From [Eubacterium] siraeum (lineage in GTDB: Bacteria; Bacillota; Clostridia; Oscillospirales; Ruminococcaceae): a stretch of DNA of 64,000 nt. The translations under genes and the position numbers were made by a program. The stretch lies in the NCBI GenBank assembly GCA_025150425.1, contig CP102281.1:2294001-2358000 (forward strand), given 5' to 3'. Shown one piece after another: positions 3,916 through 64,000 of this stretch (positions are counted from its first letter, which is position 1; each line of letters begins with the position of its first letter). The notes under the pieces were generated by a model. It had not been told where the DNA came from, did no database searches, and was given only the letters and a program-made list of their open reading frames with translations.

Positions 3916-6900
3916 TTACACTTTTTCGCTTCTGAATCTTCCGACAACATTTGCATTCTTGTCAATGTTTACCTCGAATCTCAGCGTACACGGCGAATAG
4001 TGAACATTTTCGCCCTCCGCAATAACCTCATAGAAGAATGCCAGAGCGCCTCCGTCCTCCATACGTCTTACTGCGCACTTGCAGAAGCCTTCGGCGATTG
4101 CCCTCTTTACATAAGGTATATCACGGTCGTATGTACAGAAATTGTCCTCCGTAACGGGAATATTAACATCCCCGTCAGAACAGCTGTTTTCTCTCAGCAT
4201 AGTTTCAAGCGGTGATACTTTCTTACGGCTGAATTCCGCAAACGGTGCTTTCTTGGCAATTTCGCCCTTTCTTGCAGGGTGTCCGTTTATTTTCCAGCAC
4301 GGCCGTGTAACAACGACAGTTTCACCTATATGGAAATCGTTGTTGAGATGCTCGCTCTGTGCCGAATAGAAATCAAGCGTATCCTTGTCTATCACGACCT
4401 CTTTTGCCTTATCACGCACTATTCCGACAAGCTCAAGCATAGAGAGCAGCTCGCCTGCCTTTTCCATGCACTTTTCATCGCTCCATATCTCATAATTGCG
4501 GAAGTTGTTTCTCCAGTACGTCTTTATCGGCAAATCGCCTATAAGCGCCTGTATTCTCATTTCCCAGTCGAACAGTATACCGCTCTTACTGCGTATCTTG
4601 TTCTCCTTGATGGCATTGAGCGGTTCAAGCAGCTGTGCAAACGATGCGATATTATCCGCAATATCCTGCGCTATGTACTTTCTTGTATCGCTGGTCTTCT
4701 TTTTCTCGCTTTCTTCCTCAATCTTTTCATCGCTGTACTTGTCGAAATCGTCCTGTCCGCCGTCAGCCGTATCGAACAGTGAAAATACCTCTGAGGGATC
4801 GTTAAATGTTTTCTTTACCTCAGGCTCGTCATCCATAAGCAGATTTCCGAACAGATCCTCTACCTCGGCAACATTCTCAGTGTGCTTTTCTTCGGTAAGC
4901 TGTACAGGCGTATATACTTCGTCCGGCAAATCGAAAAAGTCCATAGTTCTCGGCTTTTCGTCAGCGTCAATCGGCTCGTCCGGAGTTTCGGACAGCTCAT
5001 CGGATAATGTACTTTCCTCAAAAATACCGCTTGTCTGTTCAAGATCGTCATCCGAAATATCTTCGGAGCTACCGATGCTACCGGTGCTGTCAGCGGTTTC
5101 GGATAATCCTATAAAGTCGCCGAATTCTTTCAATGCATCCTCTACAGACTCGGCTGTACGAATAGAAGAAACAGGCTCGCTTGCGGTTTCCTCCTCCATT
5201 ATAGCGTGGAACTGTTCTTCGAGCGACTTTTCTTCGCTGTCGGCGGTTTCTTCCTGCTCGGCTATTTCTTCAAAAGCCTTTACTGCGTCCTCGACAGGCT
5301 CGCTTACGGCTTCTTCGGTGGCAGTGTCATTTTGTTCGCTGTCGATTTCAGTTTCGCTGTCGGCAGTTTCTTCCTGCTCGGCGATTTCTTCGAAAGCCTT
5401 TACCGCATCCTCGACAGGCTCGCTTACGGCTTCTTCGGTGGCAGTGTCATTTTGTTCATCGTCAATTACAGCTTCACTGTCAGCAGTTTCTTCCTGCTCA
5501 GCTATTTCTTCAAAAGCCTTTACTGCGTCCTCGACAGGCTCGCTTGCGGCTTCTTCGGTAGCAGTGTCATTTTGTTCGCTGTCGATTTCAGTTTCGCTGT
5601 CGGCAGTTTCTTCCTGCTCGGCGATTTCTTCAAAAGCCTTTACCGCATCCTCGACAGGCTCGCTTATCGGTTCTTCGGCGGCAGTGTCATTTTGTTTGCT
5701 TTCAGTTTCGCTGTCGGCGGTTTCTTCCTGCTCGGCTATTTCTTCAAAAGCCTTTACTGCGTCCTCAACAGGCTCGCTTACAGCTTCTTCGGCGGCAATG
5801 TCATTTTGTTCGCTTTCAGCTTCGCTGTCGGCGGTTTCTTCCTGCTCGGCGATTTCTTCAAGAGCCTTTACTGCGTCCTCGACAGGCTCGCTTGCGGCTT
5901 CTTCGACGGCAGTGTCATTTTGTTCGCTGTCAATTTCAGTTTTGCTGTCGGCGGTTTCTTCCTGCTCGGCGATTTCTTCAAAAGCCTTTACTGCGTCCTC
6001 GACTGGCTCGCTTACCGGTTCTTCGGTAGCGGTGTCGTTTTGTTCGCTTTCAGTTTCAATGTCGGCGGTTTCTTCCTGCTCGGCTATTTCTTCAAAAGCC
6101 TTTACTGCCTCCTCAACAGGCTCGCTTACGGCTTCTTCGGTAGCAGTGTCATTTTGTTCATCGTCAATTTCAGTTTCGATGTCAGCAGTTTCTTCCTGCT
6201 CGGCGATTTCTTCAAATGCCTTTACTGCGTCCTCGACAGGCTCGCTTACGGCTTCTTCGGTAGCAGTTTCATTTTGTTCGCTTTCAGCTTCGCTGTCGGC
6301 GGTTTCGTCCTGCTGTGCTATTTCCTCAAAAGCCTTTACCGCATCCTCGACAGGCTCGCTTACGGCTTCTTCGGTGGCGGTTTCATTTTGTTCGCTGTCA
6401 ATTTCAGTTTCAATGTCGGCAGTTTCTTTCTGCTCTGCGATTTCCTCAAAAGCCTTTACTGCGTCCTCGACAGGCTCGCTTACGGCTTCTTCGGTAGCAA
6501 TGTCATTTTGTTCGCTGTCAATTTCAGTTTCGCTGTCGGCGGTTTCTTCCTGCTCGGCTATTTCTTCAAAAGCCTTTACTGCGTCCTCGACAGGCTCGCT
6601 TGCATATAAATCGAAAATGCTCTCATCAACAGGCAGTCTTACGTCTTCAATTTCTTCATTATCCTGTATAACAGACGGCATTTCTGCAAGCTCCTGAACC
6701 GCATTTGCTATCGGAGCGGATGCCATTATCCCATTTTCAAGCAGCATCTGCTTCGGCATTCCGGCTTGCTCGTCAAAATTTTCCTCAACTGCCGTTGCCG
6801 TTACTGCGGATAAGGCTTCTTCGGCTGTATCCTCAGCTTTTTTGCCGCTTTCGCCTACATCCTCGCCTTCATTACCGACGGACGATTCAAGCCTGTTGAA

Positions 6901-7260
6901 ATGGTCGAATACACGCTCAAAGCTCACACCGGTATCGTCGTCATCTTCACTCTGAGTAAATGTAAAATTGACAGGCGATATTTCAGGCTCGGTTTCGGTT
7001 TCGCCGCTATCCCTTTCGGACATAGGCTTATACCGGCGTACAGCCTCATCAATGCGGCTGTTTATCGCATCGGTCTGTTCTTCCTCGCTTATAGGCTTTC
7101 TGATTATCTCCTTATGAGTTACCCCGCCGTTTTTCCATACGGTCAGGCTTTTCTTTCTGAGCGGAGTCTGTGTTTCCTCCAGCTTTTTCTTGGCGTATAC
7201 AGCCGCACCTACGGCAGCCGCCGCACCTACAGCGGCAACAATCGCCTTACTTATCTTCAT
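3916..7260 (-). CDS. Membrane-anchored acidic repeat protein of unknown function
   Basis: A 1114-residue protein with three parts. The N-terminus has one alanine-rich hydrophobic segment (about residues 6-22) followed by KKK, which suggests a membrane anchor or uncleaved signal. The centre (about residues 220-690) holds eleven full tandem units of 38 or 40 residues and a divergent twelfth. Each begins SEPVEDAVKAFEEIAEQEE and ends with an acidic Ser/Thr/Glu/Asp linker around EQNDTATEEA. The unit looks like one amphipathic helix plus a disordered spacer. The C-terminal 210 residues are non-repetitive with several Trp and Cys and look like a folded domain I do not recognise. The gene lies 32 bp after the ABC permease gene on the same strand and ends at the 3870 terminator. 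Topology is uncertain: without a clear signal cleavage site the repeats could be cytoplasmic. Confidence 0.75.
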   Translation of the reverse strand: MKISKAIVAAVGAAAAVGAAVYAKKKLEETQTPLRKKSLTVWKNGGVTHKEIIRKPISEEEQTDAINSRIDEAVRRYKPMSERDSGETETEPEISPVNFTFTQSEDDDDTGVSFERVFDHFNRLESSVGNEGEDVGESGKKAEDTAEEALSAVTATAVEENFDEQAGMPKQMLLENGIMASAPIANAVQELAEMPSVIQDNEEIEDVRLPVDESIFDLYASEPVEDAVKAFEEIAEQEETADSETEIDSEQNDIATEEAVSEPVEDAVKAFEEIAEQKETADIETEIDSEQNETATEEAVSEPVEDAVKAFEEIAQQDETADSEAESEQNETATEEAVSEPVEDAVKAFEEIAEQEETADIETEIDDEQNDTATEEAVSEPVEEAVKAFEEIAEQEETADIETESEQNDTATEEPVSEPVEDAVKAFEEIAEQEETADSKTEIDSEQNDTAVEEAASEPVEDAVKALEEIAEQEETADSEAESEQNDIAAEEAVSEPVEDAVKAFEEIAEQEETADSETESKQNDTAAEEPISEPVEDAVKAFEEIAEQEETADSETEIDSEQNDTATEEAASEPVEDAVKAFEEIAEQEETADSEAVIDDEQNDTATEEAVSEPVEDAVKAFEEIAEQEETADSETEIDSEQNDTATEEAVSEPVEDAVKAFEEIAEQEETADSEEKSLEEQFHAIMEEETASEPVSSIRTAESVEDALKEFGDFIGLSETADSTGSIGSSEDISDDDLEQTSGIFEESTLSDELSETPDEPIDADEKPRTMDFFDLPDEVYTPVQLTEEKHTENVAEVEDLFGNLLMDDEPEVKKTFNDPSEVFSLFDTADGGQDDFDKYSDEKIEEESEKKKTSDTRKYIAQDIADNIASFAQLLEPLNAIKENKIRSKSGILFDWEMRIQALIGDLPIKTYWRNNFRNYEIWSDEKCMEKAGELLSMLELVGIVRDKAKEVVIDKDTLDFYSAQSEHLNNDFHIGETVVVTRPCWKINGHPARKGEIAKKAPFAEFSRKKVSPLETMLRENSCSDGDVNIPVTEDNFCTYDRDIPYVKRAIAEGFCKCAVRRMEDGGALAFFYEVIAEGENVHYSPCTLRFEVNIDKNANVVGRFRSEKV
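5182..6600 (-). repeat. Tandem 114/120-bp coding repeats
   Basis: Eleven in-frame units (seven of 120 bp, four of 114 bp, total 1296 bp) from 6600 down to 5305, plus a decaying twelfth. The 114-bp units lack two codons of the acidic linker. The near-identity of units predicts copy-number variation between strains. Because the repeats avoid stops in several frames, long spurious open frames appear on the opposite strand. Confidence 0.92.
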
Positions 7261-18950: not shown

Positions 18951-18985
18951 AAACCGTATGCACTTTATCGGGGCATACGGTTTTT
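18951..18985 (+). terminator. Intrinsic terminator of the abfA operon
   Basis: AAACCGTATGC / GCATACGGTTT stem with a T-run (TTTTTGC). Repeat element A starts directly after it. Confidence 0.9.
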
Positions 18986-18988
18986 GCT

Positions 18989-19550
18989 TGTTGAAAAAGT
19001 TTTTTGTCTGATGCGGCTATGCTATATTGTTCAGTTCTGACTATGATAATAAGCTACCGATAGTTCTTTTTGTCGGATAGCACTTCTCGGGTTCGCTATT
19101 CCAATCAATGCACCTGTCAATATGAAAGAGGGAGACAACCAAAGGGATCAGGTACAAGTCTGAGCCTCGCTTACGCAAGGCTCGTGCACTCCGCTAAAGC
19201 TCCGCTGGACTTGACAGCCCCTCTCCCTGTCCCTTAGGTTTTCTCCCTCTTGCTCCCTCTTGCTCCCTCTTTCCTTACCCATACCCACACCCCGTCGGGG
19301 TGTTAGTGAAACTCGAATAACCACCTGAACATTGTACATCCTGTCAAATCAGGGACGCTTAACGCTACACGTCCGCAGGTTAGTACATATATCTCAGGTT
19401 AGTGGCGTTTTTTTGAAAGGTCAATGTTAGAGCAGTTGTACAGATATACTCACGAAATTATTAATGCCTTGTCGGTACGGAAACTGTTTTAAGCAGTGTT
19501 GGCGATACATTTCATTATGCTGTATTAATAATCGGTTTATATTTTTATAG
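18989..19550 (+). mobile_element. Dispersed structured repeat, copy A
   Basis: This intergenic element has no plausible gene. It recurs at about 26.1, 47.0, 53.3 and 63.6 kb in the same orientation. Landmarks: GCTACCGA / TCGGATAGC stem-loop (19053-19081); a long stem pairing 19126-19152 with 19226-19251; a hairpin arm between them (19153-19213); CACCCCG-TC-GGGGTG (19288-19302); GGACG / CGTCC (19353-19374); and GTGGCGT followed by seven T (19402-19414). The ends, TTGTTGAAAAAG at left and TTTTTATAG at right, are imperfect inverted repeats. It sits between the abfA-operon terminator and the recD2 stop codon. I read it as a mobile, RNA-structured element. Confidence 0.8.
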
Positions 19551-23174: not shown

Positions 23175-23230
23175 AGTAATACCTCTTGTTTTTTATTTGC
23201 CGACGGGGCATAAATATCTATAGTATATTA

Positions 23231-23408
23231 CAGCTTGTAGAAAAAGTCTGTTATTTAAAAGAATAGAACAAGTTCTCTATCCCTATCCCCAAACCCCTTC
23301 CCCCTGGGAAGGGGCTATATTACTGGGGCTACCGCCCCTTGACCCTGTTGGGGGCTACGCCCCTCAACCCCATTTTTTTGATAACGATAGAGATTTTTCC
23401 ACAGTCTG
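23231..23408. mobile_element. GC-rich intergenic repeat, family 2 copy 1
   Basis: This non-coding block begins CTTGTAGAAAAAGTCTG and ends TTTTTCCACAGTCTG; the ends are imperfect inverted repeats. Inside are three strong hairpins: CCCCTTCCC / GGGAAGGGG, GGGGCTACCGCCCC, and GTTGGGGGC / GCCCCTCAAC. The element is flanked by a perfect 19-bp direct repeat, AAATATCTATAGTATATTA, at 23212-23230 and 23409-23427, as expected of a target-site duplication. A longer relative lies at 31148-31383. Confidence 0.7.
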
Positions 23409-23469
23409 AAATATCTATAGTATATTATCCTACATTTCGGAGAAAAAAGCAAGTGTTTAACGCAAAAAT

Positions 23470-25958: not shown

Positions 25959-26098
25959 AGTATTATATGCGTAACTTTTGGAGGGGTGAATTGCCTATCC
26001 CAAACAGCACGGAATATGCCATTGAAACGCTTTATACAGGGGAAATCCGACTCAGCAGTATTTTTATTGTAAGCGCAGCAAAATATGACTGTTTCAAA

Positions 26099-26451
26099 GC
26101 TACCGATAGTTCTGTTTATCGGATAGCACTTCTCGGGTTCGCTATTCGAGTGAATGCACCTGTCAATATTGACGAGGGAAAGAACCAAAGAGACTAGGGC
26201 AAGGGACTTGACAGCCCCTCTCCCTATCTCTTAGGTTCTCTCCCTCGTGGCTCCCTCTTTCCTTACTCACACCCCCACCCCGTCGGGGTGTTGGTTGAAC
26301 TAGTAAAACTACCCGAACATTGTATATCCTTTCGATGCAGGGACGCTTAACGCTACATGTCCGCAGGTTAGTACATATATCTAAGGTTAGTGGCGTTTTT
26401 TTGAAAGGTCAATGTTAGTGCAGTTGCACCGATATACTCACGAATTTATTA
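26099..26451 (+). mobile_element. Dispersed structured repeat, copy B (short core form)
   Basis: This is the most compact copy, from GCTACCGATAG to CACGAATTTATTAA. It lacks both outer ends found in the other copies and the inner hairpin arm (here only GGGCAAGGGACTTGACAGCCC). The long stem pairs 26172-26198 with 26223-26248. GGACG / TGTCC (one G-U pair) and GTGGCGT plus seven T are kept, so this copy defines the minimal core of about 350 bp. It lies 88 bp beyond the stop codon of the unknown gene at 26539. Confidence 0.8.
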
Positions 26452-26538
26452 ACCGCCTCAAAGCACAAAAATTGTTGCGTTTAAGTTCGTTATAAAACAA
26501 GCCTTTCCGCTATAATATTAAAAAGCAATAGAATTTTA

Positions 26539-31147: not shown

Positions 31148-31383
31148 TTTATAGAAAAAGTCTGCTTTTAAGAAAACAGCTTATTCTCAAACCCTAACCA
31201 CAAACCCCTTCCCCATGGTGAAGGGCTGTGTATGCTTGGTTGGCTTTGCGTCCTTGCAAAGCCCTTGGGCATACACGCCCGGCATCTGTGCCGGGGCTAT
31301 TTCGCTGGGGCTACCGCCCCTAGTCCCTGTTGGGGGCTACGCCCCTCAACCTTTTTTAGCAAAGATAGCAATTTTTCTATAAA
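31148..31383. mobile_element. GC-rich intergenic repeat, family 2 copy 2
   Basis: This non-coding block is bounded by a perfect 12-bp inverted repeat, TTTATAGAAAAA (31148-31159) and TTTTTCTATAAA (31372-31383). Inside it shares with the copy at 23231 the CCCCTTCCCC box, GGGGCTACCGCCCCT and the GTTGGGGGCTACGCCCCTCAAC segment in sections, and has an extra 60-bp hairpin arm based on GGCTTTGC / GCAAAGCC and CCCGGCA / TGCCGGG. No flanking direct repeat is obvious. It ends 8 bp from the phoR stop. Confidence 0.7.
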
Positions 31384-31391
31384 CTAAGAGA

Positions 31392-46883: not shown

Positions 46884-46961
46884 GCGAATGACAGGAGGGT
46901 TTTAAATAATTGTTATTTGTTACAAAAGAGGTAGGGGGAAATTATGCAAGATTACATCTTG

Positions 46962-47527
46962 GCTAAGCGTAGGAAAAGTTTTTAGTTTGATGTGCTTCTA
47001 TTATGTCCTTTTAACATTTTTCTATCGTGGAAAGCTACCGATAGTTCTTTTTGTCGGATAGCACTTCTTGGGCTCGCTATTCGAAGCGATGCACTTGTCA
47101 ATATTAACGAGGGAAAGAACCAAAGAGACTAGGTGCAAGTCTGAGCCTCGCTTACGCAAGGCTCGTGCACTCCGCTAAAGCTCCGCTGGACTTGACAGCC
47201 CCTCTCCCTATCTCTTAGGTTCTCTCCCTCGTGGCTCCCTCTTTCCTTACTCACACCCCCACCCCGTCGGGGTGTTGGCTAAACTCGAATAACCACCTGA
47301 ACATTGTATATCTTGTCAATGCAGGGACGCTTAACGCTACACGTCCGCAGGTTAGTACATATATCTCAAGTTAGTGGCGTTTTTTTGAAAGGTCAATGTC
47401 AGTGCAGTTGCACTGATATACTCACGAAAATATTAATGCCTTGTCGTACGGAAAATGTTTTCAGCGGTGTTGGTGATGTGTTTAACGTTACAAATTAAAT
47501 AATAATCGTTTTTTCAACAGACTGATA
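46962..47527 (+). mobile_element. Dispersed structured repeat, copy C
   Basis: Complete copy with both ends. It is flanked by a perfect 15-bp direct repeat of the palindromic CAAGATTACATCTTG (46947-46961 and 47528-47542), as expected if insertion duplicated a hairpin target. The ends are GTAGGAAAAGTTTTTAG at left and GTTTTTTCAACAGACTG at right, roughly inverted. The core runs from GCTACCGATAG (47034) to GGTGATGTG (47480). It includes the ACGAGGG / CCCTCGT long stem, the extra hairpin arm, CACCCCG-TC-GGGGTG and GTGGCGT plus seven T. It separates the symporter promoter from the end of the five-gene operon. Confidence 0.85.
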
Positions 47528-47543
47528 CAAGATTACATCTTGC

Positions 47544-48359
47544 TTAGCCGTCTTCCCTTGTTACCTTATCAAGAGCGATTGATGTTATGATCTTTTTATC
47601 TCCGCTCTTTGTGACAACATAAGTCATAGACTTACTTGAAACCTGCTCATTGACAAGGCCGGGTATAGATACCGTAGGCGGATAATAATCAACGGTGAGC
47701 GTGTATGTTTCGCCGACATTGCTTATTTTCGAAACTACGGGGTAGTAGTTCGGGATACGGTTTGTGTCTGCCACGATGTATACCTTTTTCTCGGAATTGT
47801 AGGTTGCGAGATCCTGCACATGACCTACTGTCTGGTGCTTTACCTCGATACTGCTTCCGAAAATATTCTTTGCCGCAGTTTCAACGTCAAATTCGGGGAT
47901 ATACATTACGCCCGTGTCCGTTTCATAGTTGGACGTGTCGCCCGTGAGAAGTATCTTTGAAACGGCTATCTTAATTATAGTGGATTGTGTAAGCGTTGAC
48001 GCATCCTCAAAGCTGGGGGGATCGGTTGCAACAACGGGATAAAGGTAAAGGGCAAACTCTTCTTTAAGGTCGGTCTGATTGGCTATCCTGCCTATCCCGC
48101 CGCTGATCGCTATTACGGTATTTACCGCACCGACTACAGCGAACACGATAATGAGAAGTCCGACAACAAAGTATGCTATCTTCTTTGCAAGCCCTTTGTG
48201 ACGGTGTTCGGGAACATCGACAACGATGACCTCGTCCTGCTCGATCTCGCTCGGATCCTCCGACAGTGCCTCCTCTATAGAGCCTGCAAGTCCGTGAAGA
48301 ACCTTGTTCTCGCTTTTTGCCTCTATACGATTTTTATTCTTAATCCTCTTTTTTGCCAT
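47544..48359 (-). CDS. Single-pass membrane protein of unknown function
   Basis: A 271-residue protein: a basic and acidic cytoplasmic N-terminus (~1-58), one membrane helix (~59-82, KKIAYFVVGLLIIVFAVVGAV) and a 185-residue extracytoplasmic domain rich in beta-strands. The outer part has YYPVVSKISNVGETYTLTVDYYPP but no motif I recognise. It is the last gene of the operon starting at the sugar phosphotransferase, 15 bp after proA. A role in the cell envelope is plausible from topology only. Confidence 0.6.
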   Translation of the reverse strand: MAKKRIKNKNRIEAKSENKVLHGLAGSIEEALSEDPSEIEQDEVIVVDVPEHRHKGLAKKIAYFVVGLLIIVFAVVGAVNTVIAISGGIGRIANQTDLKEEFALYLYPVVATDPPSFEDASTLTQSTIIKIAVSKILLTGDTSNYETDTGVMYIPEFDVETAAKNIFGSSIEVKHQTVGHVQDLATYNSEKKVYIVADTNRIPNYYPVVSKISNVGETYTLTVDYYPPTVSIPGLVNEQVSSKSMTYVVTKSGDKKIITSIALDKVTREDG

Positions 48360-53142: not shown

Positions 53143-53200
53143 GTCTTGAGTATATCATAGCAGGTGTACTATAAAAAGGACAGGCTTAAGCCTGTTTGCC

Positions 53201-53892
53201 GCAATTTGTAGAAAAAGTATTTTGTTTAACGTGCTTCTGTTATATCGTTCAGCTTTGACAATGATAACAGGCTACCGATAGTGCTATTTGTCGGACAGCA
53301 CTTCTCGGGTTCGCTATTCAAATCAATGCACCTGTCAATATGAAAGAGGGAGACAACCAAAGGGATCAGGGAGAGTCTGAGCCTCGCTTACGCAAGGCTC
53401 GTGCACTCCGCTAAAGCTCCGCTGGACTGCCGCAGTGAAGCAAAGCGAAACGATTGAGCAATTGCCAAAGGTTAGTGCTCAGCCCTATACCCTGTCCCTT
53501 AGGTTTTCTCCCAAATCAGTTATTCCTCTTGAGCGACGTGAGGAGCGGGAGCATTGCTAAAGCAATGCTCTGCGTGGCATCCCTCTTTCCTTACCCATAC
53601 CCTTACCCCGCTGGGGTGTTGGCGAAACTCGTAAAACTACCTGAACATTGTATATCTTGTCAATGCAAGGACGCTTAACGCTACACGTCCGCAAGTTAGT
53701 ACATATATCTCAGGTTAGTGGCGTTTTTTTGAAGAGTCAATGTTAGAGCAGTTGCACCGATACACTCACGAAAATATTAATACCTTGTCGATACGGAAAC
53801 TGTTTTCGGCGGTGTTGGCGATATATTTCACTGTACACTTTAACAATAATAGACTTACCGACAGACTGAGCAAGCAGGCTTACCGGTAAGGG
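53201..53892 (+). mobile_element. Dispersed structured repeat, copy D (largest)
   Basis: Left end TTTGTAGAAAAAG (53206), core from GCTACCGATAG (53271) to GGCGATATATT (53828). A 14-bp direct repeat, TAAGCCTGTTTGCC, flanks it at 53187-53200 and 53893-53906. At both sites it is half of a hairpin: CAGGCTTAAGCCTG at left and CAGGCTTACC / GGTAAGCCTG at right. This copy carries extra insertions inside the long stem (53437-53485 and 53510-53580), so the 3' strand is interrupted. The stem side AAGAGGG...CAGG resembles copy A, not B, C and E. CCCCGCTGGGG and GTGGCGT plus seven T are kept. Confidence 0.8.
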
Positions 53893-53906
53893 TAAGCCTG
53901 TTTGCC

Positions 53907-54699
53907 AAATACATAAAATGGATGATAACAAAAACACTGAAAGGGATTTATCGAAAACGCTTGCCCGAAGAATTTAACAGGCAGCGTATCTTCCGTTTCC
54001 CGTATCGGTAAAGTATGATACGGGAAGTTAAAAAGGAGAATACATCTGTGCCGAAAAATGATGAAAAACAGCACAGAACTATGTAAACAGTGAACAGATA
54101 AAGACCTTTCACGATGGGTTGTCAGGCCATCAGCCTTTAACGTTCATATCCGCCGCAGCGGACTGTAAATTTCGGTTGGCAGTCTGTATTTTGCAGACCG
54201 CCGTTTGAAAAGGAAGGTAAACAATGTATACAGGAGCGAATGCTCCTTCGTTATGATTATATTTTAACATCTTACCTGTCCGATAAAACGGACTTGATAA
54301 GTAATTTTCGTATTGCAGATCTGCCCGGAATAACCGATACGAAAACTCCGGGCAATTCTGCAATGACTTGGAAAGCCAAGACAGCCAAACACAGAAGGGA
54401 GAAAGAGGAAAAATATCGGTTTTATTTCAACATTCCGCAAAGAATGTTCATTGTCGGGGCAACGGCGGTAACAGCGTCACTGCCGTTGCAGAAAAGGAAG
54501 GTTTTATGTACTACATTTCGGAGCTTGTCGCTCCTTCGTTATGATTATATTTTAACATCTTTGCTGTCCGATAAAACGGACTGATGATAGTTTTTGATTT
54601 GCAGTCACCGTAGCCGATGACCGCAAAACGAAAGAATGTGAATATTGTCCGGAGCTTTTCGCTCCCTCGTTATGTTTATATTATAACAGAGGTTGTGTC
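53907..54699 (+). other. Array of hairpins, Shine-Dalgarno sites and micro-ORFs
   Basis: About 0.8 kb with no ordinary gene. A hairpin followed by a strong ribosome site and a tiny reading frame recurs. (0) Stem 53997-54026, AAAAAGGAG, GTG frame 54048-54086 (12 codons). (1) Stem 54178-54202, AAAAGGAAGG, ATG frame 54224-54256 (10 codons, ending APSL). (2) Stem 54459-54489, AAAAGGAAGG, ATG frame 54506-54544 (12 codons, ending APSL). (3) Stem 54598-54627, then a degenerate copy. Units 1-3 share GGAGC-N-GCTCC, TCGTTATG, an AT-rich block and GTCC...ATAAAACGGACT. Another 19-codon frame is at 53918-53977. A strong hairpin is also at 54312-54364. Function unknown. Confidence 0.5.
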
Positions 54700-55062
54700 C
54701 TATAAAACGGACTGCTTTTCCAGTTTCCAATAATATTTTCTGTTTGCACGGGGGAAATCACTCATAACCCCATGTTCTGGGTCGTAGAATGTGCCATCGG
54801 CATACAGCGACCAGTGCCAGCAACGCGGCGTTTCAAGACTTAGCAGGCAAAGGGGAGGCAGCTGTTCCTTTTTCTGTACCGCTATACGTTCATCCGACAT
54901 ATGAACGCCGTGCTCTCTGAACGTTCTTTTCATCTCGGCAAGGGTGGTTTCACGGTCATTTTGAAGAAATATAACTATCTCTTCTACCGTCTTTCCGAGT
55001 ACCATAGCAAGCACAGCCTGACCGCACTGTAAGTCTGTAGGCTCGTGAATATACTCTATCAT
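54700..55062 (-). CDS. Small C39-like papain-fold protein
   Basis: A 120-residue protein resembling a minimal peptidase C39-like domain. The N-terminal DLQCGQAVLAMVLGKTVEEI has the catalytic-type Cys after a Gln, and WHWSLYADGTFYDPEHG supplies the His and Asp in the expected order. No signal or transporter domain is attached, so cytosolic processing of a peptide or a structural role are both possible. The ATG lies 8 bp after the lipid kinase stop, so they are likely one transcript. Its last codons and stop lie within the third copy of the repeat unit described at 53907. Confidence 0.7.
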   Translation of the reverse strand: MIEYIHEPTDLQCGQAVLAMVLGKTVEEIVIFLQNDRETTLAEMKRTFREHGVHMSDERIAVQKKEQLPPLCLLSLETPRCWHWSLYADGTFYDPEHGVMSDFPRANRKYYWKLEKQSVL

Positions 55063-63502: not shown

Positions 63503-63532
63503 AGGCTGTCGGCTTATGCGTGCCGACAGCCT
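63503..63532 (+). terminator. Intrinsic terminator of the 63211 gene
   Basis: AGGCTGTCGGC / GCCGACAGCCT perfect 11-bp stem, followed by a weak T-run (CGATTTAT). Repeat E starts directly after. Confidence 0.75.
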
Positions 63533-63535
63533 CGA

Positions 63536-64000
63536 TTTATAAAAAAGTCTTGTATTTGATATACTTCTATTATATCGTTCAGTTCTGACAATGATAGCAA
63601 GCTACCGATAGTTCTTTTTGTCGGGCAGCACTTCTCGGGTTCGCTATTCAAATCAATACAGTTGTCAATATTAACGAGGGAAAGAACCAAAGAGACTAGG
63701 GCAAGGGACTTGACAGCCCCTCTCCCTATCTCTTAGGTTCTCTCCCTCGTGGCTCCTTCTTTCCTTACTCACACCCCCACCCCGTCGGGGTGTTGGATAA
63801 ACTCGAATAACCACCCAAACATTGTATATCCTGTCAATACAGGGACGCTTAACGCTACACGTCCGCATATTAGTACATATATCTCAGGTTAGTGGCGTTT
63901 TTTTGAAGATTAATGTCAGTGCAGTTGCACTGATATACTCACGAAAATATTAATGCCTTGTCGGTACGGAAAATGTTTCCGGCGGTGTTGGCGATATATT
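63536..64000 (+). mobile_element. Dispersed structured repeat, copy E (cut by window edge)
   Basis: Left end TTTATAAAAAAGTC right after the terminator; core from GCTACCGATAG (63601) to the window end. Like copy B it lacks the inner hairpin arm (GGGCAAGGGACTTGACAGCCC), but it has the same left extension as A and D. The ACGAGGG / CCCTCGT stem, CACCCCG-TC-GGGGTG, GGACG / CGTCC and GTGGCGT plus seven T are intact. Confidence 0.8.

Follow-up and report, generated by a model that had tools for sequence, protein, structure and literature searches.

The systems closest to the elements described here are IS1272 and TnSha1, which by name belong to the IS1182 family and which insert into stem-loops with no requirement for a particular primary sequence; several of the targets are confirmed terminators (PMC4923244, PMC5678879). 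IS1272 and TnSha1 are reported to replace or partly delete the hairpin and to leave no target duplication, whereas here the whole stem-loop is duplicated, which is not replacement of the IS1272 type. Direct repeats of 2-60 bp are recorded for the IS1182 family (cited in PMC7335449), and according to citations in PMC4923244 and PMC5678879 palindromes are the targets of some of its members, so that hairpin targeting by the family and its range of duplication lengths are already known. The passages that cite the ISfinder range for IS1182 give no rule for the length, whereas here the duplication is as long as the palindrome and occurs mainly in one transposase clade.

Insertion into palindromic intergenic repeats is also described for the REP-targeting insertion sequences ISPa11, ISPpu9, ISPpu10 and ISRm22, which according to passages of PMC1525189 enter a conserved REP at a fixed place and produce no repeat (ISPa11) or one of 2 or 6 bp. 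The palindromes found here are locus-specific and wholly duplicated, and these insertion sequences were set aside. The PATEs and SMR-A of Haloquadratum resemble our elements in being small, palindrome-linked and without a transposase gene, but according to PMC3119063 PATEs are related to IS605 and carry their own palindromes, and SMR-A enters the palindromes of other elements and leaves the target unduplicated. Neither PATEs nor SMRs were kept as candidates. Group IIC introns insert beside terminator stem-loops and are retroelements that are not known to have inverted ends or to duplicate their target; group II introns were set aside, as no Rfam family reached the gathering score in the window. 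Within the open-licence literature searched we found no report of the mini-transposons described here or of whole-stem-loop duplication as an observed outcome. What is new is this duplication as the trait of a clade, together with the mini-transposons that go with it.

Repeat copies in the window and in the genome

The window, which is the whole stretch of 64,000 nucleotides of [Eubacterium] siraeum DNA that was analysed, holds five copies (A to E) of one repeat family, the long type, all on the plus strand. By their sequence features they are non-autonomous mini-transposons (MITEs): the elements of this genome are short, multicopy and too short for a transposase gene, they have terminal inverted repeats and, at 44 of 68 end pairs, target-site duplications, and their ends are common to autonomous IS1182-family elements in related genomes (L142, L143, L144 and others). 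A partner transposase in the same genome was not found by profile and sequence searches of that genome.

Copy C is a long-type MITE of about 563 bp at 46962-47524, with an eroded left end (GCTAAGCGTAGGAAAAG) and a right end (TTTTTTCAACAGACTG) at 47509-47524. The initial annotation placed it between two perfect copies of a palindromic 15-mer, and CAAGATTACATCTTG (CAAGAT-TAC-ATCTTG, stem 6, loop 3, identified by exact match and DNA folding) does occur exactly at 46947-46961 and at 47528-47542. The left palindrome directly adjoins the eroded left end and the right one lies 3 nt beyond the right end, stopping 1 nt before the stop codon that forms the 3' end of minus-strand ORF 47544-48359. No ORF of at least 100 aa was present inside copy C among the listed ORFs. 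Synteny around copy C is not kept in the relatives searched for an empty site.

Copy D (53202-53868) exceeds copy C by about 105 bp (663 vs 558). As had been noted, it lies between two copies of TAAGCCTGTTTGCC (53187-53200 and 53893-53906), each of which belongs to a hairpin recognised from sequence and folding. The right hairpin (53870-53906) is complete, with a 15-bp stem and a free energy of -14.6 kcal/mol when folded as DNA. The left one (53180-53200) is shortened to a 6-bp stem at -5 kcal/mol, and equally good folds arose in 15 of 200 shuffles. Because the two hairpin copies are unequal in length, copy D falls below the ungapped direct-repeat score used in the next section. Shortly past copy D, a 53-nt repeat (GCTCCTTCGTTATGATTATATTTTAACATC...) is present in three copies at 54242-54713. 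Elsewhere in the window (5112-6587), a degenerate repeat array with 114-120 nt spacing lies inside the minus-strand ORF 3916-7260.

Copies A (18984-19530, right limit approximate owing to an eroded right end) and E (63533-64000, recognised by sequence comparison and continuing beyond the end of the window) start directly behind terminator-like hairpins, as first read. These were seen in sequence and fold at 18951-18983 and, with an 11-bp stem, at 63503-63532; a complete second hairpin was seen at neither copy. The left flank of copy A is not syntenic in locus L046 of Ruminiclostridium sp. RGIG9130 (genome G262). Copy B (25974-26538) is absent at the syntenic place in L046, where 21 bp separate two matches that are 565 bp apart in the window, and both its ends are too eroded for a hairpin to show.

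The window also holds two plus-strand MITEs of a second, shorter type. The first (23231-23408, 178 bp) has ends like those of the long type and is flanked by 19-bp target copies (AAATATCTATAGTATATTA) at 23212-23230 and 23409-23427. Its target is a weak dyad with a 5-bp stem, which at -0.3 kcal/mol folds little or no better than shuffled sequence. The element is present in L046 and was not seen in the corresponding locus L041, where by eye there is one diverged target copy. The second (31149-31388) has diverged ends, and no target duplication was recognised.

Across the genome, a single contig of 2.69 Mb, the family of copies A to E gave at least 50 matching pieces that merge to about 40 places, a count that is a lower bound with 40 of 49 candidates scored. 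Complete long-type copies are usually 0.5-0.7 kb and, with variation, start with CAGnTTGTAGAAAAAGTC and finish with GGTTTTTCGACAGTCTG. The short set, for which 60 further stretches were read, is mostly 160-380 bp with an internal stretch of the CCCCAAACCCCTTCCCC type. Both sets share the end types CAGnnTGTnGAAAAA...TTTTTCnACAnnCTG, and the left 18-mer, with up to three mismatches allowed, has 101 matches in the genome compared to 15 for the reversed pattern.

Duplication of the flanking palindromes

To score the flanks genome-wide, left and right ends not more than 1 kb apart were joined into end pairs, the right ends being picked by motif alone and blind to the flanks. This gave 68 pairs of 147-879 bp. 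Direct repeats lying directly outside the element with a score of at least 11 were found at 44 of the 68 pairs and at none of 680 controls that had been given a foreign left flank. The genome-wide data thus support what the initial annotation had proposed, namely that the elements enter stem-loops and duplicate them. The set leaves out copies with eroded motifs, among them A, B, C, E, L004, L008, L019, L022b and L032, of which the last five have, by eye, a hairpin on both sides. A few of the 68 are probably chance pairings; six have at least three left and at least four right mismatches, and two of these six are still flanked by repeats.

The 44 repeats measure 13-35 bp (mean 26.3, sd 4.4) and are identical throughout in 28 cases; the elements between them are 162-831 bp long, 32 being of 400 bp or less. 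Repeat length and the span of the enclosed palindrome vary together (r = 0.95), the two feet of the palindrome lying on average 0.64 and 0.68 nt from the start and the end of the repeat. A stem score of at least 6 was reached by 40 of the 44 repeats; among random windows matched in length the figure was 35 of 880. The palindromes are specific to their locus, with no match at score 11 between left and right flanks of loci more than 1.5 kb apart. Identical flanks at all copies, which would have made the repeats part of the element, are therefore not what is found.

Outside the feet of the 42 long repeats, 21 have an A-rich tail on the left together with a T-rich tail on the right, nine have the T tail only, nine the A tail only and three neither. 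Terminator-like tails (at least 4 A in 8 nt on the left and/or at least 4 T in 8 nt on the right) thus accompany 39 of the 42, a count taken without a control. The element shows no preferred orientation relative to the tail. The duplicated palindromes are usually terminator-like hairpins, which by their form would act as terminators, and some targets are weak AT-rich dyads. At one locus (L003, G000:C1:1336732-1337497) a single terminator holds two tandem MITEs that differ in type, with three copies of one 29-bp hairpin, one of them with two changed bases, around them; this arrangement indicates one terminator hit twice.

The 24 end pairs below the repeat score are of several kinds. In five, the element ends are bordered by an exact 7-10 bp repeat, compared to one of 4532 control pairs, which suggests, on five cases, a default stagger at non-palindromic sites. 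Four (copy D, which is L025, and L081, L088 and L097) have, by eye, whole hairpins with an indel or a changed loop. L079 (G000:C1:2226206-2226945) runs in the order hairpin, short MITE, hairpin, second MITE, hairpin, and its first and last hairpins are exact reverse complements of each other, so that the loop is inverted. By eye, a complete but different hairpin lies on each side of L084, L087, L103, L121 and L024, and such elements are perhaps products of recombination between copies; swapped partner flanks were sought between the copies of the genome and none scored. In other failing pairs, such as L077 and L010, by eye the hairpin is one-sided or missing, and a few are weak pairings that are possibly no element at all.

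Comparison with relatives supplied the empty sites that the initial annotation had asked for. Five paired elements in two stretches were compared with the genomes G262 and G263. At two of the five places G262 lacks the element and holds one hairpin, not two: a single 32-bp hairpin in place of the element at 715857 and a single 28-bp hairpin in place of that at 616793. No clean empty site was found in G262 for the elements at 613796, 630609 and 712116. Long-type copies give 31 matching pieces in G262 and none in G263 at 1e-5, and short-type matches are many in both. When L186 is compared with contig C42 of G262, the long-type copy 712116 (9553-10115 of L186) lies where the matches switch order and strand, as at an inversion breakpoint.

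IS1182-family transposases with similar ends

The IS1182 family of insertion sequences is the likely mobiliser of the MITEs, and it fits the initial guess of a group that inserts into palindromes and makes long duplications. The transposase gene that the initial annotation proposed to look for in the genome was found, with ends of the TGTnGAAAAA type, in IS1182-family elements of related genomes and as broken remnants in the genus; no intact one was found in the genome itself. The searches there covered IS1182-type transposases (NF033551, PF13751, PF05598 and the clade protein) and returned two weak NF033551 matches only, at C1:242979-243902, and a PF05598 match at 243765-243938. PF13751 had no match, and the clade transposase had none at 1e-10.

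Within the genus, DUF772 was matched in 13 of 60 genomes. When the PF05598 loci were compared with the MITE ends at up to four mismatches, 13 of the 14 listed loci had no match and L140 had two weak ones. A wider inverted-repeat search revealed a broken transposase in the same genus (L129) between ends CAACCTGTCGAAAAAGTC and CAGCTTGTCGAAAAAGTC. The clade transposase was matched at 1e-10 in 12 of 71 genomes of the genus, the nearer matches (41-70% identity) being fragments of 56-135 aa, some of them at contig ends, and the longer ones being distant (25-34% identity). Four of the 12 listed loci have an end with two mismatches or fewer (L275, L276, L277 and L279), and in L275, L277 and L279 the matching end adjoins a hairpin.

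In related genomes, the NCBIfam IS1182 model NF033551 gave elements with open frames, and L142, L143 and L144 score above its cut-off. L142 (495-aa frame) and L143 (478 aa) have MITE-like ends and identical stem-loops of 29 and 31 bp, respectively, on both sides. At L144 (487 aa), a 39-bp stem-loop that the scripted screen missed is seen by eye at each side. The L144 protein contains DDE_Tnp_1_6 (PF13751), DUF772 (PF05598) and DDE_Tnp_1 (PF01609) domains, and a sequence search found no solved structure related to it. IS1182-type matches with E of 1e-60 or better occur in 31 of 394 genomes at the level of the order and in 81 of 398 at the level of the phylum.

From the best-scoring matches listed, 65 IS1182 loci were examined, L142-L148 being the only NF033551 loci counted. 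Whole-stem-loop duplication is present at 17 of them, 16 by script (21-35 bp, 14 exact) plus L144. By eye, the others comprise three with two different hairpins, five with repeats of 5-9 bp, 15 whose usable ends lack a repeat of at least 5 bp, and 25 without usable ends. A complete but different hairpin on each side, perhaps from recombination between copies, is seen at L215, L218 and L254. The ends start with CAG in all 17 duplicating loci except L244 and L271, and CAGnnTGTnGA[AC]AAA is found at one end at least in 11 of the 17, with a variant in the others. The CAG-end clade is distinguished from a group with GGGGCTGT ends.

A first tree was built from 39 of 40 classified rows, L263 being dropped as too short in one frame and L144 being in the wrong frame. 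It united 14 hairpin rows and three two-hairpin rows in a clade with support of 100/99; L271 lay outside. In a second tree L271 was omitted as a long branch, L144 was in the right frame and the L129 piece was added. There a single clade unites all 18 hairpin-flanked rows (support 98/99, present in 96% of 200 bootstrap trees), and none of 500 shuffles scored as low. L129, from the genus of the window, falls inside this clade with a row that fills 26% of the columns. IS1182 rows with repeats of 5-9 bp or none fall outside it, in a region of the tree that carries a warning on long branches meeting. Whole-stem-loop duplication as a trait mainly of one IS1182 clade is thus supported by the sequences. 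The divergent IS1182-type transposase L271 (G847), which lies between two 32-bp hairpins outside the main clade, is a possible second origin of the trait.

Proposed joining at the palindrome, alternatives and meaning

We consider it probable that the MITEs are mobilised in trans by the DDE transposase of one IS1182 clade, with a stagger that spans the whole palindrome. Since no intact partner was found in the genome and those of the genus are broken or distant, we infer trans-mobilisation from the shared ends. The transposase would bring both element ends to a palindrome, typically the stem-loop of a transcription terminator, and link each 3' end of the element to one of the 5' feet of the stem-loop, the two joints lying on opposite strands. 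The stagger would then equal the full palindrome length, and gap filling would leave one complete stem-loop on each side. A stagger that varies with palindrome length points to a target whose feet are brought together, and thus to an extruded four-way (cruciform) structure. In a cruciform the 5' feet would be close whatever the length of the stem, and an enzyme of fixed geometry could give duplications of 13-35 bp. Joining at the 5' feet appears in PMC5678879 as possible pathway b, which would duplicate the whole stem-loop, and for this IS1182 clade our data fit that pathway. That the clade reads DNA shape, with joining at the 5' feet of a cruciform, duplication set by the palindrome and a fallback to 7-10 bp where there is no palindrome, has in our view an even chance of being right.

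The target might instead be a single-stranded hairpin, on the lagging strand or in a transcription bubble, or a terminator complex, with the duplication arising from repair around the hairpin. We regard this as unlikely, though it deserves some weight: the terminator-like tails of 39 of the 42 long repeats, counted without a control, would suit such a target, and the sequence data here do not separate a single-stranded hairpin from a cruciform. Set against it are the even orientation of elements relative to the tail (nine T-only, nine A-only, 21 both, three neither) and the staggered joining of two strands at symmetric feet, for which a single-stranded target alone does not account. It is improbable that an unrelated transposase, whose ends resemble those of the IS1182 clade by chance, moves the MITEs. 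The lack of a PF13751 match or of any intact IS1182-family transposase found in the genome would agree with this, but IS1182 elements have in common with the MITEs both the ends and the unusual duplication of whole stem-loops, and IS1182-type pieces with MITE-like ends are present in the same genus.

Two further explanations carry next to no weight. Many complete copies have a hairpin on both sides, as they would if the hairpins were part of the element, but this is already contradicted by hairpins that differ from locus to locus and by the single hairpin that a relative has at each of two empty sites. The other explanation, that neighbouring terminators later recombined or underwent gene conversion, could be read from L084, L087, L103, L121, L024 and L079, where by eye the hairpins differ or the loop is inverted, but it is hardly compatible with 44 locus-specific repeats at element ends, two one-copy empty sites and the failure to find a swapped partner flank in the genome.

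The length of the target duplication made by a DDE transposase is normally held to be near-fixed, and here it follows the structure of the target. Duplication set by the palindrome can, if true, explain the 2-60 bp range recorded for IS1182. If the transposase reads shape, terminators would stay working in both directions: insertion between two complete hairpins keeps the original A-rich and T-rich tails outside, so that transcription from either side should meet a hairpin and tail after crossing the element. As the terminator is duplicated and not deleted, insertion should cost the host little, and this low cost could explain the tens of copies in the genome. It may further be that these elements serve as natural markers for palindromes that can extrude in living cells.
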